This document shows positions 12,104-25,040 of a stretch of DNA of 29,076 bases, one piece after another. A program made the translations under genes and the position numbers. The stretch covers positions 1 through 29,076 of the IMG/VR virus record IMGVR_UViG_3300021579_000030; one strand, given 5' to 3'. Every line of letters begins with the position of its first letter. The first letter of the stretch is position 1. The notes beneath the pieces are model-generated. The model searched no databases. It was not told the DNA's origin and saw only the letters and a list, made by a program, of their open reading frames with translations. The stretch is from a virus.

Positions 12104-14050
12104 ATGTCAGTTGATACATTAATTGAAAATGCCACAATCAGGGCTAACGCATACTCAGGATATGCGCTAGATACCGCTAACGAGCTCCGTAATTTTGCCA
12201 CCTATGTAGATACCAATCTTTATCTTCCAGGCACTATTGATGCAGACGGGAATTATGTGACAGGTCTTGATTTGTCACATGTGGCTTTGCCCACGTATGA
12301 AAAGCCGGTTAAAGACAGTGTGGCAATGCCGGTTTATGAGCCTCCTTTGTCGTCATTTCCTATTGCCCCAAACCTGTCCGACATCCCCAATATAACGATC
12401 CCTGCGTCTAGGGCAGAGCCTACAGTAAATATTTCCGGGCTTTTCCAGCAGGTAGCACCCTCAACAAATCTTCCAGACTTTACCGAGGCGGAACCTGATT
12501 TAAACATCGATGCGCTCATATCCGAGATGAACACTATCGCTGCGCCGGTTATTCAAAGCTTTGATATGCCTTCGTTATCGCCGTTATCTCTTAGAGACAC
12601 ACCGTCCATTACCATCCCCGGCTATGATGCGGTGGCTGCTCCTGACCAGCTTGCTGAGCCAGTCGATTATGCGGCGGCAATGGACGCTAAATACCAGCAA
12701 ATGCTGCCTGAGATGCAGGCTTTCATTGATGATAAGGTTTCCGTATGGATAGCCCAATATGCGCCAGAATATACCGAATGGAGCGCGTCCTTAAAATCCA
12801 AGGTAACAGCAGCACTGACAGGTGAAGTATTGCCTGAGCAGTTTGAGACCGCCATGTTTACCCGCGCAAGAGGTAGGTCAGAACAGGAGTTTGCCAAAGC
12901 CGAGCAGGATTTGCTGGATGGCTTTTCAAAGCGAGGATTTTACGAGCCACCAGGAGCGTTGTTATCAGGCTTGCACACTGGCCGGTTAAAAAATGCTGAA
13001 GCATTAGCCAATCAATCAACTGATATTTATCTTGATAAGCGTCGCACGGAAATACAGCATCTTCAGTTTGTTATGGGCATGGCGTCGTCGCAGATACAGA
13101 GCACACGCAATGTGGCTATAAGCTATGCGGGGACTATTGGTTCGACGATGCAGCAGTCGGTTGCCTATGCTTCAGAGGTGGCAGATAAGCTAGGCAATAT
13201 ATTTGAGCACCTGGTTAGTCGATCTGAGCTTACCATAAGAATTATGGAGGTGCTTAACAGCCAGTACGAGGTTAAGTTAAAGGCTGCTTTAGCAAGTCTT
13301 GACGGCTTTAAGACAGAACTTGATGTCGAGAAAACCAAGAAAGAAGTAGAGCTTGATCAGCTTAGGTTTATAGAAACAAGGATTAATGCTCAAGCTCAGG
13401 AAGTTAACCGCTATTCTGCGTTGATTGATGCGGTAAGCAAGAAATCTGCTATGGAAGAGCTTAAGCTTAAAGGCTACTCGATAAGATCCGATATTTTTAA
13501 AAATAGAACACAGGCACAGATGGCTAGTTTTGACGCTTACAAAGCGGCTATTGAAGGCGACAGGGCCAAGATGGACGGTGAGTTGTCAAAGATAGATATG
13601 TATAAGTCGCTGATAAGCACAGACCAGATGAGCCTTGATTCACAGACAAAAGCATCAAATGCTATTGCAGCGCATAACGACGCCAAGATTAAAGCCTTTG
13701 AAAGCGCTGGCGATGTTTATAAGCTTGATGCGGCAGCGGCCTTACAGAAGTTTACCGCCTATGCAGAGGTTAAGAAGCTGTCACAGACCATTTACGGGCA
13801 GGAACTAACCAACGCTATCGAAGCTTATCGTGCTGATCTCGAAGTCCCAAAGATCATGATGGACGCTATCATCAAGCAATATGAGCTGTCGGTTAATACT
13901 GCGATAGAAGAGGCGGTATTGAAGATCAAGAAACTTGAAATCAGCGAGAACGCAATGAGAAGCGCTGCGGATAATTTCGGCAGCATCGCGCAAGGTTCTA
14001 TAGGATCACTAAATACTATGGTTTCCAGCGCTATCAGCGCATCGGCTTAA
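12104..14050 (+). CDS. Internal virion-type helical protein
   Basis: A 648-residue protein. Residues ~1-190 are Pro-rich with repeated LPxYExP and PxLNI-type segments. Residues ~190-648 are almost wholly alpha-helical, with long charged coiled-coil stretches (for example ELDVEKTKKEVELDQLRFIE and FDAYKAAIEGDRAKMDGELS). No enzyme motif, no membrane segment. Its position directly before a disordered protein and the giant polyvalent protein suggests a core or ejection protein of a short-tailed phage, or an adaptor. AAGGAA lies 8 bases before the ATG and the 51-base leader carries a recurring hairpin. Confidence 0.65.
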   Translation: MSVDTLIENATIRANAYSGYALDTANELRNFATYVDTNLYLPGTIDADGNYVTGLDLSHVALPTYEKPVKDSVAMPVYEPPLSSFPIAPNLSDIPNITIPASRAEPTVNISGLFQQVAPSTNLPDFTEAEPDLNIDALISEMNTIAAPVIQSFDMPSLSPLSLRDTPSITIPGYDAVAAPDQLAEPVDYAAAMDAKYQQMLPEMQAFIDDKVSVWIAQYAPEYTEWSASLKSKVTAALTGEVLPEQFETAMFTRARGRSEQEFAKAEQDLLDGFSKRGFYEPPGALLSGLHTGRLKNAEALANQSTDIYLDKRRTEIQHLQFVMGMASSQIQSTRNVAISYAGTIGSTMQQSVAYASEVADKLGNIFEHLVSRSELTIRIMEVLNSQYEVKLKAALASLDGFKTELDVEKTKKEVELDQLRFIETRINAQAQEVNRYSALIDAVSKKSAMEELKLKGYSIRSDIFKNRTQAQMASFDAYKAAIEGDRAKMDGELSKIDMYKSLISTDQMSLDSQTKASNAIAAHNDAKIKAFESAGDVYKLDAAAALQKFTAYAEVKKLSQTIYGQELTNAIEAYRADLEVPKIMMDAIIKQYELSVNTAIEEAVLKIKKLEISENAMRSAADNFGSIAQGSIGSLNTMVSSAISASA

Positions 14051-14094
14051 ATAATTCTATCTTAGAAAATATATCTATCGCCGGGAGGATGATA

Positions 14095-15483
14095 ATGGAT
14101 AACGTAAAAAAGAAACTGGATTTAAACTATATTCCTGACCGGACCATAGTCGGTGGATGGGATTCTAGCAAGTTAGCTAATAATGTTATAGCGCCTGTTG
14201 CTAATGCTAGCGTCAATGCCATGCAGGGGATAAGAAACATACCCAGAGGGCTAAGCTATGCTGGAGGTGCAATAAAAACAGCTGTCCAAACGCCATCAAG
14301 AATTCTATTTGGCGACAAAGGCTTTCAAGCAATAAATAATGCAGGCTCAAATGCTATTGATTATGCTAATAAAGGGCTGTCCAATGCTACGCAAAAATAC
14401 AAGACAGGTTCAAAAGATTATGGCGTTGCTGGCGGATTAATGGGTTTGGCGTCAGGAGAGGGCGAGGCTAATACATCTGATAAGAGCGTTAGTAATAATC
14501 CACCTCCTGCAGCTACTGGTAACTCATTAATTCCATACCCTCAATGGGGAGTTACTGGCGATAAAAACGTTAGTAAGCCTGATGTAAATACAGCAATTCC
14601 AAATAACAGGATGGTTAATGGCTTACCTGCCGCCATGTCATCTGAAAAAATAGCTGGCAATGGTGACAGGTCTTACACAATGCAAGGCGACAATGGCAAG
14701 CATTATCAATTGGATATTGCGCAGACCGGAACTGGAAAAAACGGCTATGGCAACTTTGATGTAAAAAGCAGCAACGGCCAAGCAGGTACGGTATCAGCTT
14801 CACCTGGCTTGATGAAGAACTATCTGGCGAATAAGGGCAGTTTCGGTGTTGCTGGCCTTAACTCAGCACTGGACAGGATGCAAAAACAACCTGAGGCAGT
14901 TCAACAACCACAGCAAATTCAGCAACCTATGGGCATGCAGCAAATTCCTACTAACGACTACACCAACGCCATAAATCATTATGTGGATGTGCTTAATTCG
15001 GCGGCTCCTACTGATTCCTTTGACTCCATGATTGCCCATAAGAAATCTGTGGCACAGGCTCTTTCAGGTTTACAGGCATTATCAGGATTGCAGCAGCACA
15101 CCCAGCAAAACGCAGTAGCCAGAGAAGGTCTTGCTGCTGATTACCTAAACCGTCAGCAACAAAACGAAATTGATCGTAAACGTGCTGAGTCAGATGCCGC
15201 ACAGAATGAATTTAATCAGCAGCTCGGACTTGGGAAGTTCGCCTATGGCATGCAAAAGGATCAAGCAGATCGAATGGCAAATCAGAAACCTGTGACACTT
15301 AAAACAAAATCCTATGACGAAAATGGCAATGCTATTGAAACTGAAGATTTAGTTGATCCAGTGACAGGCAGAAAGATTGCAGGAAGTAATATTCCTTCAA
15401 AACCTGAAATAAGGTATGACGCAAAAGGTAATGCTTATACAAAAGACAAAGATGGAAATGTTGTTCCATATAATGGGGGTTAA
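14095..15483 (+). CDS. Internal virion-type disordered protein, Gln-rich
   Basis: About 462 residues from the ATG at 14095. I prefer that start because the strong site GGGAGG ends 6 bases before it, while the ATG at 14089 directly touches the site. Residues ~20-100 are Ala/Gly/Asn-rich with amphipathic helices. Residues ~180-240 look folded (SYTMQGDNGKHYQLDIAQTG). Gln runs follow (QQPQQIQQPMGMQQ), then helices. The end (YDAKGNAYTKDKDGNVVPYN) is a short repeat-like tail. No catalytic motif. It immediately precedes the giant gene (2-base gap), so a joint ejection or core role is inferred. Confidence 0.65.
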   Translation: MDNVKKKLDLNYIPDRTIVGGWDSSKLANNVIAPVANASVNAMQGIRNIPRGLSYAGGAIKTAVQTPSRILFGDKGFQAINNAGSNAIDYANKGLSNATQKYKTGSKDYGVAGGLMGLASGEGEANTSDKSVSNNPPPAATGNSLIPYPQWGVTGDKNVSKPDVNTAIPNNRMVNGLPAAMSSEKIAGNGDRSYTMQGDNGKHYQLDIAQTGTGKNGYGNFDVKSSNGQAGTVSASPGLMKNYLANKGSFGVAGLNSALDRMQKQPEAVQQPQQIQQPMGMQQIPTNDYTNAINHYVDVLNSAAPTDSFDSMIAHKKSVAQALSGLQALSGLQQHTQQNAVAREGLAADYLNRQQQNEIDRKRAESDAAQNEFNQQLGLGKFAYGMQKDQADRMANQKPVTLKTKSYDENGNAIETEDLVDPVTGRKIAGSNIPSKPEIRYDAKGNAYTKDKDGNVVPYNGG

Positions 15484-15485
15484 TT

Positions 15486-18400
15486 ATGGGCGTTAATTGG
15501 GATGAATTAAGCGTCAGTCATCCAGGTGTTAATTGGGACAAATTGAGCGCGACTAAACCTGTGCCGAACGACACTTCAACCAATGCCGCGGACATCGGCA
15601 GACTTGGCTTACAAGGCGTTACTGGTGTTGGTGGTGCAATAGGCTATGGTCTTGAAAAAACCGGCATAGCGCCTGAATTTGGCCGTACTTTGCAGGATTC
15701 TGATCTAGCGGTGCAGGAGAAATTAAAAAGCCATTTATCGCCAGCTATGCAAGACGCGGCGGCACAGCCGCTTATCACCGATCAAGGCGAGTTTAACTCT
15801 AATTTTGGTTTGCGTTCATTAGCTGCCAATGTGGTTCCATCAATACCGGGATCAATTGCCATGGGTATGGCGGGAGGGCCGTTAGCGACAGGTGCGACCA
15901 AGGTTTTGCAAGCATTAGGTGTGGGCGCAAAGGCTGCCGGAGTAGTTGGCAGAGGCTTAGGTTTTGGTACATCAGAGGGTGTTTTTTCTGGCGCTCAAAA
16001 TGCTGAACAATGGGGCCATGAACAGCGTGCCAGACCGATAAGTGATTTCGCCAGGCATCCCGCATGGGGACAAGTCCTACAGGATAATAACAATGATCCT
16101 GTAGCAGCTAAAGAAGCGTTAATCAATCAGGGACAGAGTGACATATTTAAAGATACCACATTAAAGACTGGCGGCTTGTCTGCACTCACAGGCGGCGGCA
16201 TGTATGGCGTGTTGAGAGGTGCGAAAGCAACGGCTGCTGATGCAGCAAGATACGGTTTTCTAAAGACGACAGGGAAAAGTGTTGGCACAGAAGCCTTGCA
16301 AGAAGCGCCACAAAGTTATTACGAGCAGAAAACAACCAACCAGGCGACTAAGGATTATGTAGACCCAAATCAGGACGTAAACCAGGGGGCAGTTAATGCA
16401 GGCTTGGTCGGCGGGATATCTGGCGGCGTTATGGGCCTTGGTGGTGGTGTTGCTGGGCTTGGCTTTAGACATCAGACTAAAGTATCTCCACTAACAGGCG
16501 AACCTGTCCCCGAAGTAACACCAGACAGCGGTGCTTTAACCAATGCTTTAAACAATGGCGCTGTTACACAAACAAACACAGCAGATATTATCAACAATGC
16601 CGGTAATCTGGCTGACCAGCTCTATGGCAACGAAGCGGACTTAAATGGCGAACAGGCGACAAGGGGAAATAACAATGTTTCTGGAACAGAAAGTGGAGGC
16701 ATTGGAGAACGCAATGCTGCTCCTACAAACATCGATGAACGTACTTCAATCGGAGAACCAAGAGCTGCACCAGCGTCTGACCAGGCTGGAGCAGGATCAG
16801 GAGACGCAGGTCAAAATTTACAAGACAATCACTTAAGTACTGCTGATGCAATTACACGCGACTTTAATGAAACAGCAACTACCACACCACTCGCAGACGC
16901 GATCCCATCAACCTCACAGGAGACTAGCAATGGCCGGAAAGAAAACACCAGCGAAAAGCAAGACACCAATGCCCCGCAAGAAAGGCTGCTAAACCAGGGT
17001 GCGCTCGGTAATACGGGCGCATTTATTACTACGCAACAATTAAACAATGACAACGCTCAAGCAACAACTAACCAAACTGTATCATCACAACCTGAAGCAC
17101 GGGGAGCAGATACAAGTACCGCCGTTAATACTCAGTCTGGTACAGAGCAAGCGCCAGGGCAATCTGTTCAAGAGGCAGGTCAAGCTTCTATTGTTGATAA
17201 AGCAACTGGCTTACCGTTTACCACCAAGTCATCAGCGTTAAAGGCGTTAAGCAGTAAGACTGCTTATCCAGAAGCCACACCAGCTACGCATGAAATCAAG
17301 GGCAGTCCAGATACAGGATTTGTGCTTGCTCCTAAACAAATACAGCAAACCAATGAAAATAACACCGCCGGACGACAACAGGTTCAAGCACCAACTACAG
17401 ATAACGCGAGTACTGGCGAGGCTGAAGCAGGGGCGCAACAAAATAAAACCGAAGCTCAGTCGGTGGATTCACAACCGGCGGTTACTGGCTTAGCAACTAC
17501 CGAGCTTTCCTCGGCAGTTTCCGACATGATCAACAATGAGGTCATGAAGCCTGTTGTCTCTAAGTCTATACGCGATGATGGGCAGAAGGTTCTTGATGCG
17601 CATGCAACCGGCGATATTGAGACGCTGAAAGCGCTGCAAAATAAATACGCCATGGAGACTAAGCGAGGCGCTGATGCAGTGCATAAGGCAGCCACACTGT
17701 CGATTAAGCATTATGATCAGCAGGCAATCAAGCAACCGGCAAGCAATTCTCAACAAGCTTCTGGGCAACAAGCTTCTAAACAGCATGTCTCTGAGCAACA
17801 AAAGCCATCGGTTACTGCACAGTCTATCCCGGACAAATACAAAAGCGATATGAATAAGGAAGCAGTTTCTTCTCTGCTACCTTTTAATATTTTTGGCAAC
17901 AAGTCACATCTGCTGGCTAACTCCATCGGTAAATTAATGGAGTCAGCTGCGAAATCAAGCACCCGAGTGATAGATGCATTTGGCGGTAGCGGAGGCTATA
18001 CGCATTACCTTGCGCATACCGGTGCATTACCTAAAGGTTCTATCTTAAATGAATTTGACCCTATGCGTGCGATTGCCCATAAGCAAATTAAGGATAATCC
18101 AAACGCGGTTCGTGATGCGGCTCAGGGTTTTGAGGATTATGTTCTTAGTAAACTTGATATTCCCACATCAAATATCGGCAATGAGCATGTTGATAATTTA
18201 AAAAGGATTAGGACAGAACTCACCCAATGGGCGCGTGATCAATTACATGCGCACGCTATTCCCGGGCAGGATTATGTTGCTAAAGGCAAGAGTAATACAC
18301 CGATTGAAATGCAGGACAACCCAAGTACGGCTGGTCTGTATTACTTCCTACAATCACAATCATTCAACTTTATCCCTATACAGTCCGACACCAGCAGCAC

Positions 18401-21400
18401 AGGCAATTTTAGAGTGCCTGGATTTGCCTTTATTACTATTGACAATAAAACAGGGAAGGTCAAGAAATTTGGCCGTGGTAAGATTTACCTTGATAACAAG
18501 AAAGAAATTATCAAGAATGCATCTGAGCGTACCAAGAACGTTGATACTCGGCGCGGGAATGGCTGGGAATTAATCAGGGATGAAGCAGGTAAAGGCGATC
18601 TGGTAACGGTAGACACTAGTTACTTGAACAAAGGTAAAGTTAAAACTTCCAATTACAGCAAGGCGACTGAAGAAGACGCTAATCCTGATGTTTATTTACA
18701 GAAAGTCACTGATAATCTCTTGCCTGCCTGGGAGCGTGGAGCTAAGCTTGTTATCACTAATAACTGGAATGATGACGTAGCGAATACGCTTGAGTCATTA
18801 GGCTTCCATGTTTACCAAACCCAGCGTTCAGACGCACTTCAAACCGGAGATAACAATGAACTCGTCGCCCTCAACTTCGACCCAGGAACCAATGAGATTT
18901 ACAGCACAGGAGAATCTTTGGCTAATGAGCCTTCCGGACAAACTGCTGGAGAAGTTAACACTACAGGAAATGGCAACACTGGTCAGAACGGACAGCAGTC
19001 AGTGGCCCCAGGAACTAATCAAGAAGGTGGAACCGTACATCGACCTGACGGAGGATTAGACGAGCCGACATTATTTAGCAAGAAGACCGAAGAAACCACT
19101 CGATTTGGCAGCAAGGTATTCAATGGCAAGCTAATCCCCTGGGTAAAAACATGGATGTGGGGTGGTGATGGTAATGCCGCTGGGCATTTCAGTTTTCCGT
19201 CTGATGCTTTAATCAGGCAGTCATCTAAATACGTTCCTAAAAAAACAGTGACGCTTTATCGCGCACATGACAAAAATATAAAAGATTCTGCTCTGCAGTC
19301 ATGGACTCATGATAAGGACATCGCCCAGCAAATGGCCGAAGATTCTGGGCGAGAATTAATATCCAGAGAATTTGCGCCAGAACAAATACTGATAGATCTA
19401 TCCTTGTTTGATAAGTCAGTGCAGCAGCATATTCTTGAGCATAACTGGGATGAGGTTATTGTAGCCACTGGTGATGCGGCTGCATATATTCAAGGCGTGC
19501 GGGAGCAATCGGAACAAGCGCAGAGCAAGTTCAGCAAAGCATCATCACAAGATGTAGGCATCCTGAAGGAATATGCCAAAGACGATGATATCTTCAGGCA
19601 CCCGATAAGCGACAAAATAACAATCCGTGGAATCATGGAGGATATAGCACCTGATTTTAGCTATGTAGGCGTTCAGCACATAGGGGCTATGACTCGCTAT
19701 ACTTTCATGACTGATAAGGCACAAAGCTTCTTTGTAATGGAAAATGAAGGCAATGTATGGATAGATGTAAGCGAACTAACAGAGGGCAGTCGTGGCAATG
19801 CTATTTATGCGGCAGTAGGTAATTATGCAGCCAATACGGACAAGGTTTATATCGGCTATCCTGAAGGCTTAACCAAAGCTGCTGTTATTGCCAGGAACAA
19901 AGCCATGCTGTCGCTGGCTTTGCGTTATGGCCGGGTGGACTTTCTTGCGCCATCAAAAGAGCAGTTAAAAGGCGATGCTGCCAAAGGTATACCGCCGTTA
20001 AAATGGGATGGCGACTATGTTGACAAGGTCAGTGCCTTGATAGACACTGTCACCTCCCATCTATACGCAAACATACCAGAACTTAAGGGCTATAAATATG
20101 ACTTCGACAATGAGCAATTTGAAGACAGACTTGGACGCCCAGCAGGCAAGGGATGGCTTCATAGAATTATCGGCTCAGCAAGTGGAAGAGCATCTAAAGC
20201 GGGTGAGACGACATTACGCCAAGGTGTTTTCCTCCAGTCCCTTACATCAAGCACGCGCGGCGAAAAATCCGAATTACTGGAACGAATTCAATCCGGGATG
20301 CTGGAATCTGCCAGACGACGCGGAATAGATGGCATATTCAGCAAGCAGCAGAATAATGTAGCCAACCCACACACCAAAGCCAGCCTGTTAACCGCCATGC
20401 GGGACAGGCTTGACAAAGAATACGGCAAAGGCTGGAGTGACAGACTGCTTGCTACTGACAAGTTTAAGATTATTGGCAGGGATGAGGCCATTGCTATTGG
20501 CGGAGCGAAGGCTGCTGGTGCTCAGGGCTTTTATAATGCCAAGGATGATACATCATACCTGGTGGCCGAAAACATTGGCAAGACTGATGATCTTAAGGGC
20601 TTACTATTACACGAAATTTCTACTCACCAATTATCACTGATCCGCACCGACCCAGAATTCCAAAGCATCCTCAAGCAGCTTGAAAATCTGCATAAGCTTG
20701 GCAACAAGAAAGTCAAGGAGGCTTTTGACCGGGTTCCAAAAGATACTAATCCTAAGCATGTATGGGAAGAGACGGCTGCCTATCTCGTCCAATATTCACC
20801 CGACCTACCTATATCCAGAAAAATAATCGCCTGGTTCCGTAACGCCATCCGCGCTATCGGCAAGGCATTACCACCACTGGACCGCCTGCGTTTTTACCGC
20901 TGGGCCGATGAGCTAGATGAGAATGACATCGTATTTATAGCAAATGCGGCGTTGCGGTCGGCTCCTGATAGTTTGGTGTTTGATCAGGTGGGGCGTAATG
21001 GCGGCATCATGACCAGTGCCTTTGCTCCTGATAAGGTAAAGCCAGATTATAAAGGCGAGTATTTCCATGGCGATGCTGATGTTAACAAAGTCATGCAGTC
21101 AAATGGACTAGTAGTTATAAAAAACCCTACCAGAGCACGATCCTTAAAATTAGCTGATGCGGATATGTATTCAGATATAAGAGGGGTAGTTGATAACGCG
21201 ACAGGGAATCTTTATATAGCCAGTAGCTCATCATCTTTGCATGATTCGATAATAGACGCTGCCGGACTTCCTAATAATGGCGACTATGACAAGCTTAATA
21301 TTCCTGCAAAGGCTATTTATAGTTATCCTCGTAATATTTTTTCTGATGATATTTCTGGCGATGGCGTAAAATACAGCTTTGCCGGCCAGCATTCTGCAAC

Positions 21401-24400
21401 CGCAGACACTTACCTGTTAGACACCGCCAAGCAGCGTCTTGAATCTGGAGAGGATGCTGAGCAAGTTAGGCAAGATACTGGATGGAGCATTGGCGATGAC
21501 GGTAAACCTCGCTACGAAATCAGCGACAAAGACGCAGCCTTAACCAATACGGCACAGGATGCAATCATAGAAGCCAATCCTGATACCGTTTATAGTCTTG
21601 ACGAGGTGATTAATCATCCCAGGCTGTTTGCTGCCTATCCAGCTATGAAGAACCTTCACGTGAAGTTTGGTCAACCTGGAGAAATATCAGGCTCTTATCA
21701 TAATGGTGTTATCGAGCTAGGTAAAAACAACGATAAAATATTATCGACCTTGCTCCATGAAATACAGCACGGCATTCAAAACGTGGAAGGTTTCGCCCGT
21801 GGCGGTTCAGTAAACGGACTTGGTTATTCTGACTTCAGTGAGCACTACAAACACAGGCTTGACACGTTGCGAGACCTGGCTGATGAAGAGCGCAAAGCAG
21901 GAAATGAAGCCAAGGCTAAGGTATTGGAAACGCAACGGGCGCAGTTGTATTATCCAGCTCAATATGAAGCATACCTGCGGTTGGCTGGCGAGGTTGAGGC
22001 GCGTAACACAGAAGCGCGAATGAACATGAGTGATGCGGAGCGCAAGGCTACATCGCCCAAGGCAACAGCGGACACGCCATATAGCGATGTCGTGGTGGTG
22101 TTTAGCGGTAAGCGGATGGATAATGCGCCGCCTCCTGCTAACGCTAATCCAATAGGTCTGTCGAAATGGTTCAATAAAGCAAAAGACTTTGTATCTGGTA
22201 ATGACAGATCAGTAAACAGCCTTGGCGACATTGATTCTATTCTTGCTACCGGAAAGATGCCGCAAGACAAGACTGATATGCAAAGCGTTATGGATAAGGC
22301 CGCAACAATGCTGGTTGATTCATCTCGTCCTTTTGACGTATGGACGCGGAAGCTTGCTAACCAAGTGTTTTCTGGGGAGTTGATACTTGCCAAAGACAGG
22401 GCTAAACGACGCACAGCCATCTTTGAGAAGGAGGCTATGGACAACTATCTTAAGCCTCTGGCTAAAGTTATCGCCAGCATTGCAAAGGAGCATAACCTTG
22501 ATTATAGGGCAGCTAAAGAACTCGCCGGGCAATGGATGACGGTGCGCTATGCGCTGGAAAAGAACCAGGATTACATTAGGCAAGATCAAAAATCCGTTGA
22601 TGATGCGCAAGCTGCCCTTGATGATAAAATAGCACTTGATAAAAAAGAGTTGGCCCAAGGAAAGATTGACGCGCTGCCAGCTAATGGCGCTTTAAAACAA
22701 GCATTATCCAAGGCTAAGACAAAGCAACAGGCAAGACTTTCAGCCATTAATGAACAGCGGCGTATTGATCCCACAGAAGAATCCCTAGCATCGGGCTTAG
22801 CTGGCGGATATAACGACTTTACTGCGCAGCTGTACAAGGATGCCATTGAAAATAAAATCCCCGTAGCGAAGCTTAATGAAGCCTCTAAACATGTCTACGA
22901 TATGCTGGCATGGAAGCTTAATAAAGACCTAGCAGACGGCAAAGTAACCCAGGCTATTGTTGATACCTGGCATAACTCTCCACATTATGTTCCTCTTACC
23001 GGAGATCCAAGTGTGGATGAATCAGAGGATTCTTTATTTTCACATGGCAGCATTAACCAGCAATCAGACAAACAGGCAAAAGGGCGTTCTGGAAGTATTG
23101 CGCAGAATGGTATCGATGCGGCTACTGAGCAGGTACAAAAATCAGCGCGGTTTCATGGCTGGGCTGATTTCAAAGACAAATTTACTCAAATCTATGATGA
23201 ACTTATTCAAAATGAATTAGATGACGGACTAACGCAACAAAAGGCCCAGCATGAGGTTTCAAAGAAATACGGTATTGATAGAGCACCGGAGACAGCATTA
23301 ACTCGTCCATCAGACACCGGACTTATCATTCGCAAAAATGGCCGCAGCTGGGTTTATGATATTAATGATAAGGCGGCGATGGATGCGTTACGCAGTGTCA
23401 ATAAGGAAGATGTTTCCAGCGTATTGCAGCCTGTTGCCTGGTTTACACGTTCCTATGCCCGCATGGTGACGCAATTAATGCCTGGATTTGGTGCGATCAA
23501 TGCGATACGTGATACTTGGGAGCGGTCCGAGAATATTCGCACACGGGCCTTGCCTGGTTATGAAAACATCAACATGGATAAGGTTGCGCGTAACGCCATA
23601 AAAACAGCCGCGAATCCGAAGCTGATTAAGAAATTAATGGGGGTCATGTTTGAAGGCACTAAATTGGCTAATAAGTTCACCGTCAACGAAAACGACCCGG
23701 ATATTAAAACTATCAGAGAGATGATTAGCGAAGGCGGAACCTCAACAGTTGGCGATTATCTAAGCGCGACCAGTGCCACGCTATCAAAGCAAATGAAAGA
23801 TTCGTTGAAATTGTCAACGCAAGCGATGGATGTAGTTAGTGCCTGGAACAACTCCTTTGAACTGGTTTCAAGCTATTCAATTTACAAGGCATTACGGGAC
23901 GCTGGTGTCGATAAAAAGACAGCGGCTAGTGGCACTCTTAACCTAATGAATTTTGGTAAACAAGGAACCGTTGTCGGGCCATTAAAAGCGTTATATGTGT
24001 TTACCAACCCAACCATGCAAGGCGGCCATCAGCTCTTGCAAACATTGGGCACCAAGCATGGTCAGTACCGTGCAGCTGCTTATCTGGTGGCAGGGATTAT
24101 GCTGTATACCTTCCTAAGATCCGGCGATGATGACGACGAGATTGGCATTAACAAGAGAGATGAACTGGGTAATTTTGTACTTGAGCGCAACATCCCCATC
24201 AAGATTGGCGACAACGAGTATTTTAAAATCCCTGTTGGTTTCGGATTACCGCAGTTGGCTTGGTCAACGGCTGTCAATATGAGCAAGTTCATGTTTGGAG
24301 AGCAGGACGCAGTTGATACCGGCGCTGAAATTATGAAGTCGTTTGCCAGGACATTAGCCCCTGTGCAGCCTAGTGAAACATCGATCTCAAACCATCCGTT

Positions 24401-25040
24401 AATTTGGGCCACCCAAACTTTTACGCCACAGATAGCCAAACCATTAGCTAATATTGCACTGGATGTGAATACGTTTGGATCACCGCTTACGAATGCAAAG
24501 TTTAATAAAGCCGACATTGCCAATGCCTTGCAGGGTCGTAAATCAACGCCAGAAGCATATAAGATGATAGCTTTGGAACTGGCTAAGTTTGGCATTAACG
24601 TTTACCCTGAGCAAGTTAGAGAGATTATCAAGGGCTATGCTGTAGGGCCTATGAATGAAATTATTAAGGAGATGGTGGATAACCCTCATAAGGAAAGCAT
24701 AGGACGGAATACAGTGTCACCATTGTTTGATAGGTATATTTCTATGCAAGACAGGTCAGATTTAAAAGAGCGTCTGTATTATCGTTATCGTGACAGAATG
24801 AACAAGGTTATGGTAAAGAAGTCGGTTGGTGATGAATTGTCACCAAGAGAGGAAAGTCTTGCCAAGCTTTCAGTTAGTGTTAAAAGAATTGAGGGCAGGG
24901 CAAATGGCAAACTTGCTGCGGCTTCAAGAGTAGAGAAAAGACATAAACATTTTATTAGCCCATACCGTAGACAGGCCGATAAGCTTCACGAAACGGCTAT
25001 GAAGCTGGTGTTCGATAATTTTAATGCGGCTGCTGAATGA
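15486..25040 (+). CDS. Giant polyvalent phage protein (MTase-, ART- and peptidase-like domains)
   Basis: A 3184-residue multidomain protein. Residues 2-21 hold two GVNWDxLS repeats, then Gly/Ala-rich hydrophobic helices to ~330. Residues ~335-780 are mostly disordered. Residues ~790-1125 resemble a D12-class adenine methyltransferase: DAFGGSGG at 830-837, NEFDP, but DTSY at 1043-1046 where DPPY is expected. Residues ~1195-1345 resemble an ADP-ribosyltransferase: YR at 1258-1259, SWT at 1272-1274, E1323. Residues ~1355-1540 carry a WIDVSELTEGSRGNAIYAA-type domain seen in other polyvalent proteins. HEISTH at 1709-1714 and HEIQH at 2091-2095 (with GEVEAR near 2169) mark two metallopeptidase-like domains. 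The C-terminal ~780 residues resemble LPD38, with a hydrophobic segment near 2865. Such proteins are packaged and ejected to counter host defence; that role is inferred from the family. Confidence 0.85.
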   Translation: MGVNWDELSVSHPGVNWDKLSATKPVPNDTSTNAADIGRLGLQGVTGVGGAIGYGLEKTGIAPEFGRTLQDSDLAVQEKLKSHLSPAMQDAAAQPLITDQGEFNSNFGLRSLAANVVPSIPGSIAMGMAGGPLATGATKVLQALGVGAKAAGVVGRGLGFGTSEGVFSGAQNAEQWGHEQRARPISDFARHPAWGQVLQDNNNDPVAAKEALINQGQSDIFKDTTLKTGGLSALTGGGMYGVLRGAKATAADAARYGFLKTTGKSVGTEALQEAPQSYYEQKTTNQATKDYVDPNQDVNQGAVNAGLVGGISGGVMGLGGGVAGLGFRHQTKVSPLTGEPVPEVTPDSGALTNALNNGAVTQTNTADIINNAGNLADQLYGNEADLNGEQATRGNNNVSGTESGGIGERNAAPTNIDERTSIGEPRAAPASDQAGAGSGDAGQNLQDNHLSTADAITRDFNETATTTPLADAIPSTSQETSNGRKENTSEKQDTNAPQERLLNQGALGNTGAFITTQQLNNDNAQATTNQTVSSQPEARGADTSTAVNTQSGTEQAPGQSVQEAGQASIVDKATGLPFTTKSSALKALSSKTAYPEATPATHEIKGSPDTGFVLAPKQIQQTNENNTAGRQQVQAPTTDNASTGEAEAGAQQNKTEAQSVDSQPAVTGLATTELSSAVSDMINNEVMKPVVSKSIRDDGQKVLDAHATGDIETLKALQNKYAMETKRGADAVHKAATLSIKHYDQQAIKQPASNSQQASGQQASKQHVSEQQKPSVTAQSIPDKYKSDMNKEAVSSLLPFNIFGNKSHLLANSIGKLMESAAKSSTRVIDAFGGSGGYTHYLAHTGALPKGSILNEFDPMRAIAHKQIKDNPNAVRDAAQGFEDYVLSKLDIPTSNIGNEHVDNLKRIRTELTQWARDQLHAHAIPGQDYVAKGKSNTPIEMQDNPSTAGLYYFLQSQSFNFIPIQSDTSSTGNFRVPGFAFITIDNKTGKVKKFGRGKIYLDNKKEIIKNASERTKNVDTRRGNGWELIRDEAGKGDLVTVDTSYLNKGKVKTSNYSKATEEDANPDVYLQKVTDNLLPAWERGAKLVITNNWNDDVANTLESLGFHVYQTQRSDALQTGDNNELVALNFDPGTNEIYSTGESLANEPSGQTAGEVNTTGNGNTGQNGQQSVAPGTNQEGGTVHRPDGGLDEPTLFSKKTEETTRFGSKVFNGKLIPWVKTWMWGGDGNAAGHFSFPSDALIRQSSKYVPKKTVTLYRAHDKNIKDSALQSWTHDKDIAQQMAEDSGRELISREFAPEQILIDLSLFDKSVQQHILEHNWDEVIVATGDAAAYIQGVREQSEQAQSKFSKASSQDVGILKEYAKDDDIFRHPISDKITIRGIMEDIAPDFSYVGVQHIGAMTRYTFMTDKAQSFFVMENEGNVWIDVSELTEGSRGNAIYAAVGNYAANTDKVYIGYPEGLTKAAVIARNKAMLSLALRYGRVDFLAPSKEQLKGDAAKGIPPLKWDGDYVDKVSALIDTVTSHLYANIPELKGYKYDFDNEQFEDRLGRPAGKGWLHRIIGSASGRASKAGETTLRQGVFLQSLTSSTRGEKSELLERIQSGMLESARRRGIDGIFSKQQNNVANPHTKASLLTAMRDRLDKEYGKGWSDRLLATDKFKIIGRDEAIAIGGAKAAGAQGFYNAKDDTSYLVAENIGKTDDLKGLLLHEISTHQLSLIRTDPEFQSILKQLENLHKLGNKKVKEAFDRVPKDTNPKHVWEETAAYLVQYSPDLPISRKIIAWFRNAIRAIGKALPPLDRLRFYRWADELDENDIVFIANAALRSAPDSLVFDQVGRNGGIMTSAFAPDKVKPDYKGEYFHGDADVNKVMQSNGLVVIKNPTRARSLKLADADMYSDIRGVVDNATGNLYIASSSSSLHDSIIDAAGLPNNGDYDKLNIPAKAIYSYPRNIFSDDISGDGVKYSFAGQHSATADTYLLDTAKQRLESGEDAEQVRQDTGWSIGDDGKPRYEISDKDAALTNTAQDAIIEANPDTVYSLDEVINHPRLFAAYPAMKNLHVKFGQPGEISGSYHNGVIELGKNNDKILSTLLHEIQHGIQNVEGFARGGSVNGLGYSDFSEHYKHRLDTLRDLADEERKAGNEAKAKVLETQRAQLYYPAQYEAYLRLAGEVEARNTEARMNMSDAERKATSPKATADTPYSDVVVVFSGKRMDNAPPPANANPIGLSKWFNKAKDFVSGNDRSVNSLGDIDSILATGKMPQDKTDMQSVMDKAATMLVDSSRPFDVWTRKLANQVFSGELILAKDRAKRRTAIFEKEAMDNYLKPLAKVIASIAKEHNLDYRAAKELAGQWMTVRYALEKNQDYIRQDQKSVDDAQAALDDKIALDKKELAQGKIDALPANGALKQALSKAKTKQQARLSAINEQRRIDPTEESLASGLAGGYNDFTAQLYKDAIENKIPVAKLNEASKHVYDMLAWKLNKDLADGKVTQAIVDTWHNSPHYVPLTGDPSVDESEDSLFSHGSINQQSDKQAKGRSGSIAQNGIDAATEQVQKSARFHGWADFKDKFTQIYDELIQNELDDGLTQQKAQHEVSKKYGIDRAPETALTRPSDTGLIIRKNGRSWVYDINDKAAMDALRSVNKEDVSSVLQPVAWFTRSYARMVTQLMPGFGAINAIRDTWERSENIRTRALPGYENINMDKVARNAIKTAANPKLIKKLMGVMFEGTKLANKFTVNENDPDIKTIREMISEGGTSTVGDYLSATSATLSKQMKDSLKLSTQAMDVVSAWNNSFELVSSYSIYKALRDAGVDKKTAASGTLNLMNFGKQGTVVGPLKALYVFTNPTMQGGHQLLQTLGTKHGQYRAAAYLVAGIMLYTFLRSGDDDDEIGINKRDELGNFVLERNIPIKIGDNEYFKIPVGFGLPQLAWSTAVNMSKFMFGEQDAVDTGAEIMKSFARTLAPVQPSETSISNHPLIWATQTFTPQIAKPLANIALDVNTFGSPLTNAKFNKADIANALQGRKSTPEAYKMIALELAKFGINVYPEQVREIIKGYAVGPMNEIIKEMVDNPHKESIGRNTVSPLFDRYISMQDRSDLKERLYYRYRDRMNKVMVKKSVGDELSPREESLAKLSVSVKRIEGRANGKLAAASRVEKRHKHFISPYRRQADKLHETAMKLVFDNFNAAAE
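16675..16836 (+). CDS. Nested +1-frame leucine-zipper microprotein
   Basis: A 53-residue protein read in frame +1 within the giant gene. GGGGA lies 7 bases before ATG. Hydrophobic residues occupy positions 3, 7, 10, 14, 17, 21, 24, 31, 35 and 38 with Asn at 28: an unbroken alternating 4-3 heptad, and Asn in the core is typical of dimeric zippers. Surroundings are Glu/Gln/Lys (LEQKVEAL, ENQELHQRL, RLEQDQE). Codons are ordinary (CTG, GAG, CAG). In the giant frame the same DNA is Gly/Ala/Ser/Asn linker rich in GGA. Such a zipper by accident is very unlikely. It may be a true nested gene, or a former gene now overprinted. Function unknown; it could oligomerise. Confidence 0.65.
   Translation: MFLEQKVEALENAMLLLQTSMNVLQSENQELHQRLTRLEQDQETQVKIYKTIT
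16930..16992 (+). CDS. Nested +1-frame basic 20-residue peptide
   Basis: The peptide is MAGKKTPAKSKTPMPRKKGC, Lys/Pro-rich, in the same +1 frame as the zipper ORF and 93 bases after it. AGGAG lies exactly 7 bases before the ATG, an ideal ribosome site. The frame is open further upstream (to 16846), but no ribosome site precedes that ATG. It is so short that chance cannot be excluded; its basic composition and the spacing favour a real or formerly real gene. Function unknown. Confidence 0.45.
   Translation: MAGKKTPAKSKTPMPRKKGC
18856..19059 (+). CDS. Nested +1-frame 67-residue protein
   Basis: Reads in frame +1 from ATG 18856, with GGAG 6 bases upstream. After a Ser/Thr opening, the sequence FTAQENLWLMSLPDKLLEKL, LQEMATLVRTDSSQWPQELI and KKVEPYIDLTED looks like a small folded helical protein with a Trp and acidic tail. 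Codons are ordinary, whereas the giant-protein frame here is a Gly/Asn/Gln linker (TGNGNTGQNGQQSVAPGTNQ) between the methyltransferase-like and ART-like domains. It ends at TAG 19057-19059. A second in-frame ATG at 18892 has AGGAA just 3 bases upstream. No family recognised. Either a nested gene or an overprinted relic. Confidence 0.6.
   Translation: MNSSPSTSTQEPMRFTAQENLWLMSLPDKLLEKLTLQEMATLVRTDSSQWPQELIKKVEPYIDLTED
20098..20328 (+). CDS. Nested +1-frame 76-residue protein
   Basis: Frame +1 from ATG 20098, with AAGGG 8 bases upstream. It contains an amphipathic helix (LSAQQVEEHLKRVRRHYAKVF), then SSPLHQARAAKNPNYWNEFN, PGCWNLPDDAE, an ordered-looking Trp/Asn/Pro end. Codons in this frame are common, while the giant frame at 20290-20330 uses AGA, CGA and ATA. 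However, the giant frame here (YDFDNEQFEDRLGRP, GETTLRQGVFLQSL) also resembles conserved polyvalent-domain sequence, so this would be true dual coding rather than a linker. Confidence is lower for that reason. Ends at TAG 20326-20328. Confidence 0.5.
   Translation: MTSTMSNLKTDLDAQQARDGFIELSAQQVEEHLKRVRRHYAKVFSSSPLHQARAAKNPNYWNEFNPGCWNLPDDAE

Follow-up and report, generated by a model that had tools for sequence, protein, structure and literature searches.

Among the described systems closest to the locus considered here, DarB of phage P1 is, according to PMC9024508, part of the virion and believed to pass into the host, and the small separate protein Ulx is listed in a table of the same source as an aid to DarB localisation. 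In phage JC1, too, mass spectrometry of purified virions revealed a DarB-like giant (PMC9144972). As for genes placed within genes, Rz1 within Rz (annotated, for instance, in phage PEp14) is a small same-strand phage gene inside another one, as the ORF described below would be; unlike the latter, Rz1 encodes a lysis lipoprotein with a known role, and its host gene is small and not a giant. Ordinary gene callers miss nested genes. Here we consider a leucine-zipper ORF lying in the +1 frame of a DarB-like giant and compare it with a conserved nested gene, NNW, of related giants.

The analysed window and its giant gene

The window is the whole of the 29,076-base IMG/VR virus record IMGVR_UViG_3300021579_000030. 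It is a tailed-phage structural-gene region, where main-strand genes, some of them matching phage structural families, precede a giant gene with the following features.

15486-25040, + strand: giant host gene of 3,184 aa, DarB-like/polyvalent type (Pfam LPD37, LPD23, LPD38)
15576-16421, + strand: N-terminal domain common to DarB-like giants (giant residues 31-312), recognized by sequence identity
18468-18827, + strand: part of the giant past the zipper ORF, with a weak resemblance to adenine methylases (Pfam MethyltransfD12, E 0.03, below the cut-off)

Like other polyvalent giants, the protein unites large polyvalent domains in one chain: LPD37 (E 6e-70), LPD23 (E 5e-18) and LPD38 (E 5e-19), all above the cut-off. 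Erwinia phages have DarB-like giants with which it shares 32-33% identity over 235-259 aa, and comparable Erwinia phage giants carry the annotation of DarB-like antirestriction proteins. Its N-terminal domain has 65% identity to that of its nearest relative, the IMG/VR sequence L001, and 32% to that of phage ctwe8250, and via these two it is also linked to SopranoGao, Mwe-JY07 and Atu_ph08. Apart from the weak methylase match, the Pfam search yielded no helicase match in the giant of the window; methylase and helicase domains are both found in the giants of PEp14, VvAW1 and LASTA.

The leucine-zipper ORF

The region downstream of the common N-terminal domain contains the following elements.

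16645-16836, + strand: whole +1 open stretch, beginning after a stop, inside the giant gene at offset +1
16661-16666, + strand: AAGGGG, a Shine-Dalgarno-like site 8 nt before ATG 16675, read in the sequence (-7.6 kcal/mol to the anti-SD)
16675-16836, + strand: proposed nested gene, in +1 relative to the giant, for a leucine-zipper protein of 53 aa, with ATG 16675 and stop TAA at 16834-16836
16681-16788, + strand: heptad core, zipper residues 3-38, with 4-3 spacing of hydrophobics
16930-16992, + strand: second short +1 ORF, 20 aa, Lys-rich, sharing the reading frame of the zipper, with an AGGAG site (-7.4)

The zipper ORF lies wholly within another gene, on the same strand and in a different frame, as overprinted genes do, and has a start signal of its own. 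An earlier note on this DNA had described here a textbook zipper directly after a strong ribosome site, and both observations hold: ten hydrophobic residues and one Asn (L3, V7, L10, M14, L17, M21, L24, N28, L31, L35 and L38) keep strict 4-3 spacing over 36 residues, and the AAGGGG site pairs more strongly than the 5% quantile of the 1,178 ATGs in the window, though less so than the 1% quantile. Of the 18 listed main-frame starts, only that of the giant itself has a stronger site (-9.6). An alternative upstream ATG at 16645 would give a product of 63 aa, but its site is weak (-3.2). The accessibility of the start site at ATG 16675 is only average.

Leu occupies all six d positions, a leucine zipper being taken as d-Leu over at least four heptads, and the one Asn, N28, is at an a position, where this residue favours pairing into two strands. 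The coiled-coil prediction proposed earlier for the 53-residue product gave a COILS-type score of 1.726 over 28 residues (P 0.9997), computed with the MTIDK table. This is the top coil of all six frames of the window, the best of the giant itself being 1.46. With AlphaFold2 in the single-sequence mode the 53-mer is predicted as one helix (residues 2-52, pLDDT 96.9); the model speaks for a helix, not for a dimer. In its d-Leu residues and its one a-position Asn the ORF product resembles zippers of the GCN4 type, and the scores are close (1.83 for GCN4 vs 1.73). In contrast to them, it is without the basic DNA-binding region, the protein consists of the zipper alone, and there is no significant sequence match. 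It does not qualify as a bZIP transcription factor (PF00170), scoring 16.0 bits against a cut-off of 27.6. In the giant frame the same DNA reads as 50% Gly/Ala/Ser/Asn, in agreement with the linker seen there earlier.

As to the 16930-16992 ORF, an ATG with a comparable site appears in 11% of codon shuffles; this ORF may be a second nested gene or may be due to chance. One more ORF in the same frame as the zipper (16396-16494, 32 aa) combines a hydrophobic stretch with a strong site (-9.4). It was set aside: Gly-rich codons of the giant read as hydrophobic in +1, which makes such an ORF easily obtained by chance, and in L001 the corresponding frame is interrupted by a stop, as judged by eye.

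Tests against chance

In the main null model, synonymous codons were permuted 20,000 times across the whole giant, leaving its protein unchanged. No permutation matched the coil score of the zipper at the locus, nor did any match it anywhere in the +1 and +2 frames of the giant (best 1.724), a count that covers this giant alone and leaves the look-elsewhere effect of a large genome scan outside it. Four stricter local nulls comprised 60,000 shuffles each. The zipper score was reached three times with a linker-only codon pool and four times when, in addition, the junction bases were kept; with the codon pool of the whole giant it was reached in no shuffle, and in one when the junctions were kept. 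The linker-pool nulls are conservative, because their pools include the zipper ORF's own codons. Thus, comparable heptads, the frequent appearance of which in shuffled controls was named in the earlier note as evidence to the contrary, do not arise at appreciable frequency. An ATG with a site at least as strong as that of the zipper occurs in 3.4% of shuffles.

Real phage DNA was scanned as well. Over 348,418 bases, the window and L001 included, all other stretches scoring above 1.6 fall within annotated genes (tables read by eye). Over 2,641,364 bases from 170 records, two other nested stretches outscore the zipper (1.892 and 1.765); each is a long ORF with another long frame on the opposite strand, the DNA having 65-67% GC, and we infer that they are the real genes of their loci. 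When the set was confined to ATG-led ORFs of at least 40 codons enclosed by a longer frame of the same strand (6,562 ORFs in 3,603,136 bases of 243 records), the top three scores belonged to three ATG starts of the zipper ORF. The distinct ORFs ranked after it score 1.600 or less, and five of the next seven are conserved NNW nested genes.

These results bear directly on the possibility that the linker codons just happen to spell a zipper in the +1 frame, which is never translated to any effect. An open frame is easily obtained here: 53 codons stay open in +1 in 6,788 of the 20,000 shuffles (34%), i.e., a frame of this length is not rare in the linker. It is the coil that the shuffles fail to reproduce (0/20,000 and 0-4/60,000), together with its first rank among the nested ORFs of 3.60 Mb and the exact coincidence of coil, ATG and ribosome site, that argue against chance. 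Still, the zipper is a single sequence with no homologue in phages, IMG/VR or GTDB, the codon usage of the host is normal over it, and a 1-in-10,000 event is bound to appear when very many windows are scanned. The ORF is exceptional; yet an event this rare is expected somewhere by chance across many scanned windows, and since a genome scan yields such rarities by chance, the prior matters. Taken together, we regard the chance origin as somewhat unlikely.

Relatives of the zipper and of the giant

No homologue of the zipper was found by tblastn among phage records (one chance match, E 4) or in genome scans of IMG/VR and GTDB, which catch near relatives only. Among PDB sequences nothing was significant (best E 0.065), and Foldseek found no match for the helix. 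The matches of the zipper in Pfam, PHROG and NCBIfam were dismissed as generic coiled coil, as shuffled copies match too: nine heptad-shuffled copies had PHROG matches as good as E 3.5e-4, including one to the family that ranked first for the zipper itself. As for the giant, the only further relative found in IMG/VR was L001, none being found in GTDB genomes or in plasmids, and no relative carrying the zipper stretch was found in the collections searched. In L001 the common N-terminal domain extends up to window position 16454, but the zipper ORF is absent.

The giants of L001 and ctwe8250 are without a strong in-frame coil (best 1.37 and 1.42, respectively), which speaks against the zipper being a relic, that is, a sequence once read in frame, as part of the giant or as a separate gene, and left as dead coding sequence when two compensating indels shifted the giant frame. 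Such a history would fit the words "or was coding" in the earlier note, the intact quality of the zipper and the normal host codon usage; however, a relic would hardly be expected to be so neatly bounded by an ATG, a ribosome site and a stop, and we consider this origin very unlikely.

NNW, a conserved nested gene of DarB-like giants

The nested coils ranking next include several copies of one unannotated gene of about 105 aa, designated here NNW. In Pavtok, PEp14 and Stean it is an SD-led ORF of 105-106 aa, starting with MNLNNWV, in the +1 frame of a giant of roughly 5,000 aa; it lacks annotation in these phages as well as in SopranoGao, LASTA, Atu_ph08, POI1126, VvAW1 and Mwe-JY07. By tblastn it was found in 21 of 50,697 phage records, each match being covered or faced by a long annotated gene, for the most part named DarB-like, methylase or PLxRFG; there was no match in plasmids. 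The phages bearing NNW infect Erwinia, Klebsiella, Pseudomonas, Agrobacterium, Ochrobactrum, Vibrio and Microcystis. The loci are as follows.

L011 and L012, 5578-5892: NNW
L013, 5596-5913: NNW
L173-L180, about 14001-14300: NNW
L181-L245: further NNW loci

In 10 of the 11 genomes read, NNW is in +1 relative to the giant frame. The exception is Sinorhizobium phage PBC5 (L178 7767-14309), where NNW forms the in-frame end of a 2,180-aa protein and, just upstream of NNW, the giant frame opens again; this arrangement may stem from a frameshift in sequencing, from a genuine split or from programmed frameshifting. The IMG/VR scan with ten query sequences returned 65 partly redundant loci, 63 of which lie nested in +1 within a host frame of at least 500 codons, while the remaining two are PBC5 again and a locus cut by its contig end. 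Among the 63 nested loci, 61 have a site of -5 kcal/mol or stronger, and 61 start with ATG.

The NNW product is predicted to be helical (pLDDT 84-92 by blocks, residues 1-70). Five of 47 members match Pfam TnpV at E <0.001 (best 5.9e-6). Among solved structures no natural protein matches NNW by sequence or fold, the best sequence match being a designed helical repeat (E 4e-4); with the NNW model, Foldseek found no significant target in PDB and a single one in BFVD, Q8W6J4, which we take to be the PBC5 protein. No description of NNW was found in the literature on DarB-like/PLxRFG antirestriction or on nested genes, subscription papers being outside the scope of this search, nor in the available parts of PMC5512222 and PMC9144972. 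As far as these searches show, NNW is a conserved gene that has not been described.

At the NNW loci, the constrained frame is the nested one. Conservation of an alternative frame between giants is weak evidence when taken alone, because many clusters follow from conserved host domains, and only the codon-position test was counted as evidence for constraint. In all nine pairs compared, changes are commonest at nested third positions (18, 13 and 38 changes by nested codon position for Pavtok vs SopranoGao). The codon differences in the host frame over NNW, computed for eight of the nine pairs, are almost all non-synonymous: 45 non-synonymous vs 3 synonymous codons for Pavtok/SopranoGao and 16 vs 5 for Pavtok/PEp14, the whole giants of the latter pair differing in 960 synonymous vs 471 non-synonymous codons. 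The alignment score of nested NNW exceeds that of the host frame in 36 of 36 pairs, and in two of these the host-frame identity over aligned columns is slightly above the nested one. In each of ten NNW giants, both host GC3 and the host codon score over NNW are within the lowest 1.4% of windows, and the nested codon score tops all other sampled +1 windows.

Comparison of the zipper with NNW

NNW is like the zipper in its +1 frame, in its ATG with a ribosome site, in its helical product and in its position, as the host frame is a low-complexity linker upstream of the methylase region of the giant. It differs in its length of about 105 aa, in being nested in 63 of 65 IMG/VR loci, in the disturbed codon usage of its host and in sequence, the two being non-homologous. 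Of the three codon signatures of NNW giants, two are present at the zipper: host GC3 drops to 0.21 (0.9 percentile), the giant as a whole having 0.42, and in codon score the nested frame exceeds all other non-overlapping +1 windows sampled from the giant. The value of this score, 0.05 with training on the whole window, lies under the 5th percentile of windows in the giant frame. The collapse of host codon usage is absent, the codon usage of the giant over the zipper being normal (61st percentile).

In PEp14, VvAW1 and LASTA the NNW start precedes the match to an Eco57I-type methylase domain by 293-318 codons, and in the window the zipper ORF comes before the weak methylase match and after the N-terminal domain that links its giant, by way of L001 and ctwe8250, to NNW-bearing giants; the synteny is one of order only, as the spacing to the methylase differs and the methylase match of the window is weak. 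The equal frame offset, the comparable place and the helical product might suggest that the zipper is an NNW homologue diverged beyond recognition. However, searches of the window with NNW profiles built from 10 and 47 sequences gave no match, profile-profile comparison gave a probability of 0.1%, and the conserved Trp, His and Pro of NNW are absent from the zipper, which thus falls outside the family as defined by a profile match. This already disfavoured homology appears extremely improbable to us.

Possible origin and role of the zipper ORF

By analogy and statistics, short of proof, we consider it somewhat more probable than the opposite that the zipper ORF is a genuine nested gene, because it is improbable by chance and because related giants carry a clearly real nested gene, NNW. 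The heptad was earlier called the strongest single proof that the nested frame is or was coding. Coding is indeed the likelier reading in view of the shuffles and the top nested codon score, whereas "proof" is too strong a word for a single sequence with no homologue, with host codon usage undisturbed unlike that of all ten NNW giants, and with the look-elsewhere effect uncounted in the shuffles.

If the gene is genuine, ribosomes on the mRNA of the giant would also initiate internally at ATG 16675 by means of AAGGGG, and the product would be a 53-residue helical protein, presumably pairing as a parallel two-stranded coiled coil. The giant-frame product of the same DNA would be a loose linker rich in Gly, Ala, Ser and Asn and tolerant of double coding. 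As to the function, the most likely one might be that of a small partner made together with the giant and helping in its assembly or packaging. The suggestion derives from the analogy with Ulx of phage P1, a small protein that serves a DarB-type giant and is listed as helping to localise it (PMC9024508); Ulx, unlike the zipper, is encoded by a separate gene adjoining darB, and we find a partner role of the zipper rather doubtful. Comparison of the NNW profile with Ulx, made with NNW, gave no similarity.

In a broader sense, the linker before the methylase in DarB-like giants may be a standing niche for small helical proteins encoded in +1, a slot which different phages fill with different partner proteins; this proposal is tentative and, in our opinion, falls a little short of being evenly balanced. 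NNW and the zipper would then be unrelated occupants: there is no NNW in the window and the zipper is unrelated to it, therefore the zipper, if real, is an independent occupant. It would probably be the younger of the two, since the host codon usage over it is still normal. If all this is true, a conserved gene lies concealed in the largest gene of many phages and a second, unrelated one in a similar position; giant antirestriction genes would then each specify several products, and the low-complexity linkers of giants would be a birthplace of new genes.

Other frames of NNW-bearing phages

In phage Itty13 (L174 8987-21322) the giant frame of 4,112 codons is unannotated, and three long opposite-strand genes are annotated instead. 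In VvAW1-like contigs a second SD-led nested ORF, encoding 42 aa and strongly basic (MSPSKKRQLK...), is located upstream of NNW, with the following starts.

L204, 4828: start of the 42-aa basic nested ORF
L207, 5197: start of the same ORF
L215, 5200: start of the same ORF
L218, 5200: start of the same ORF
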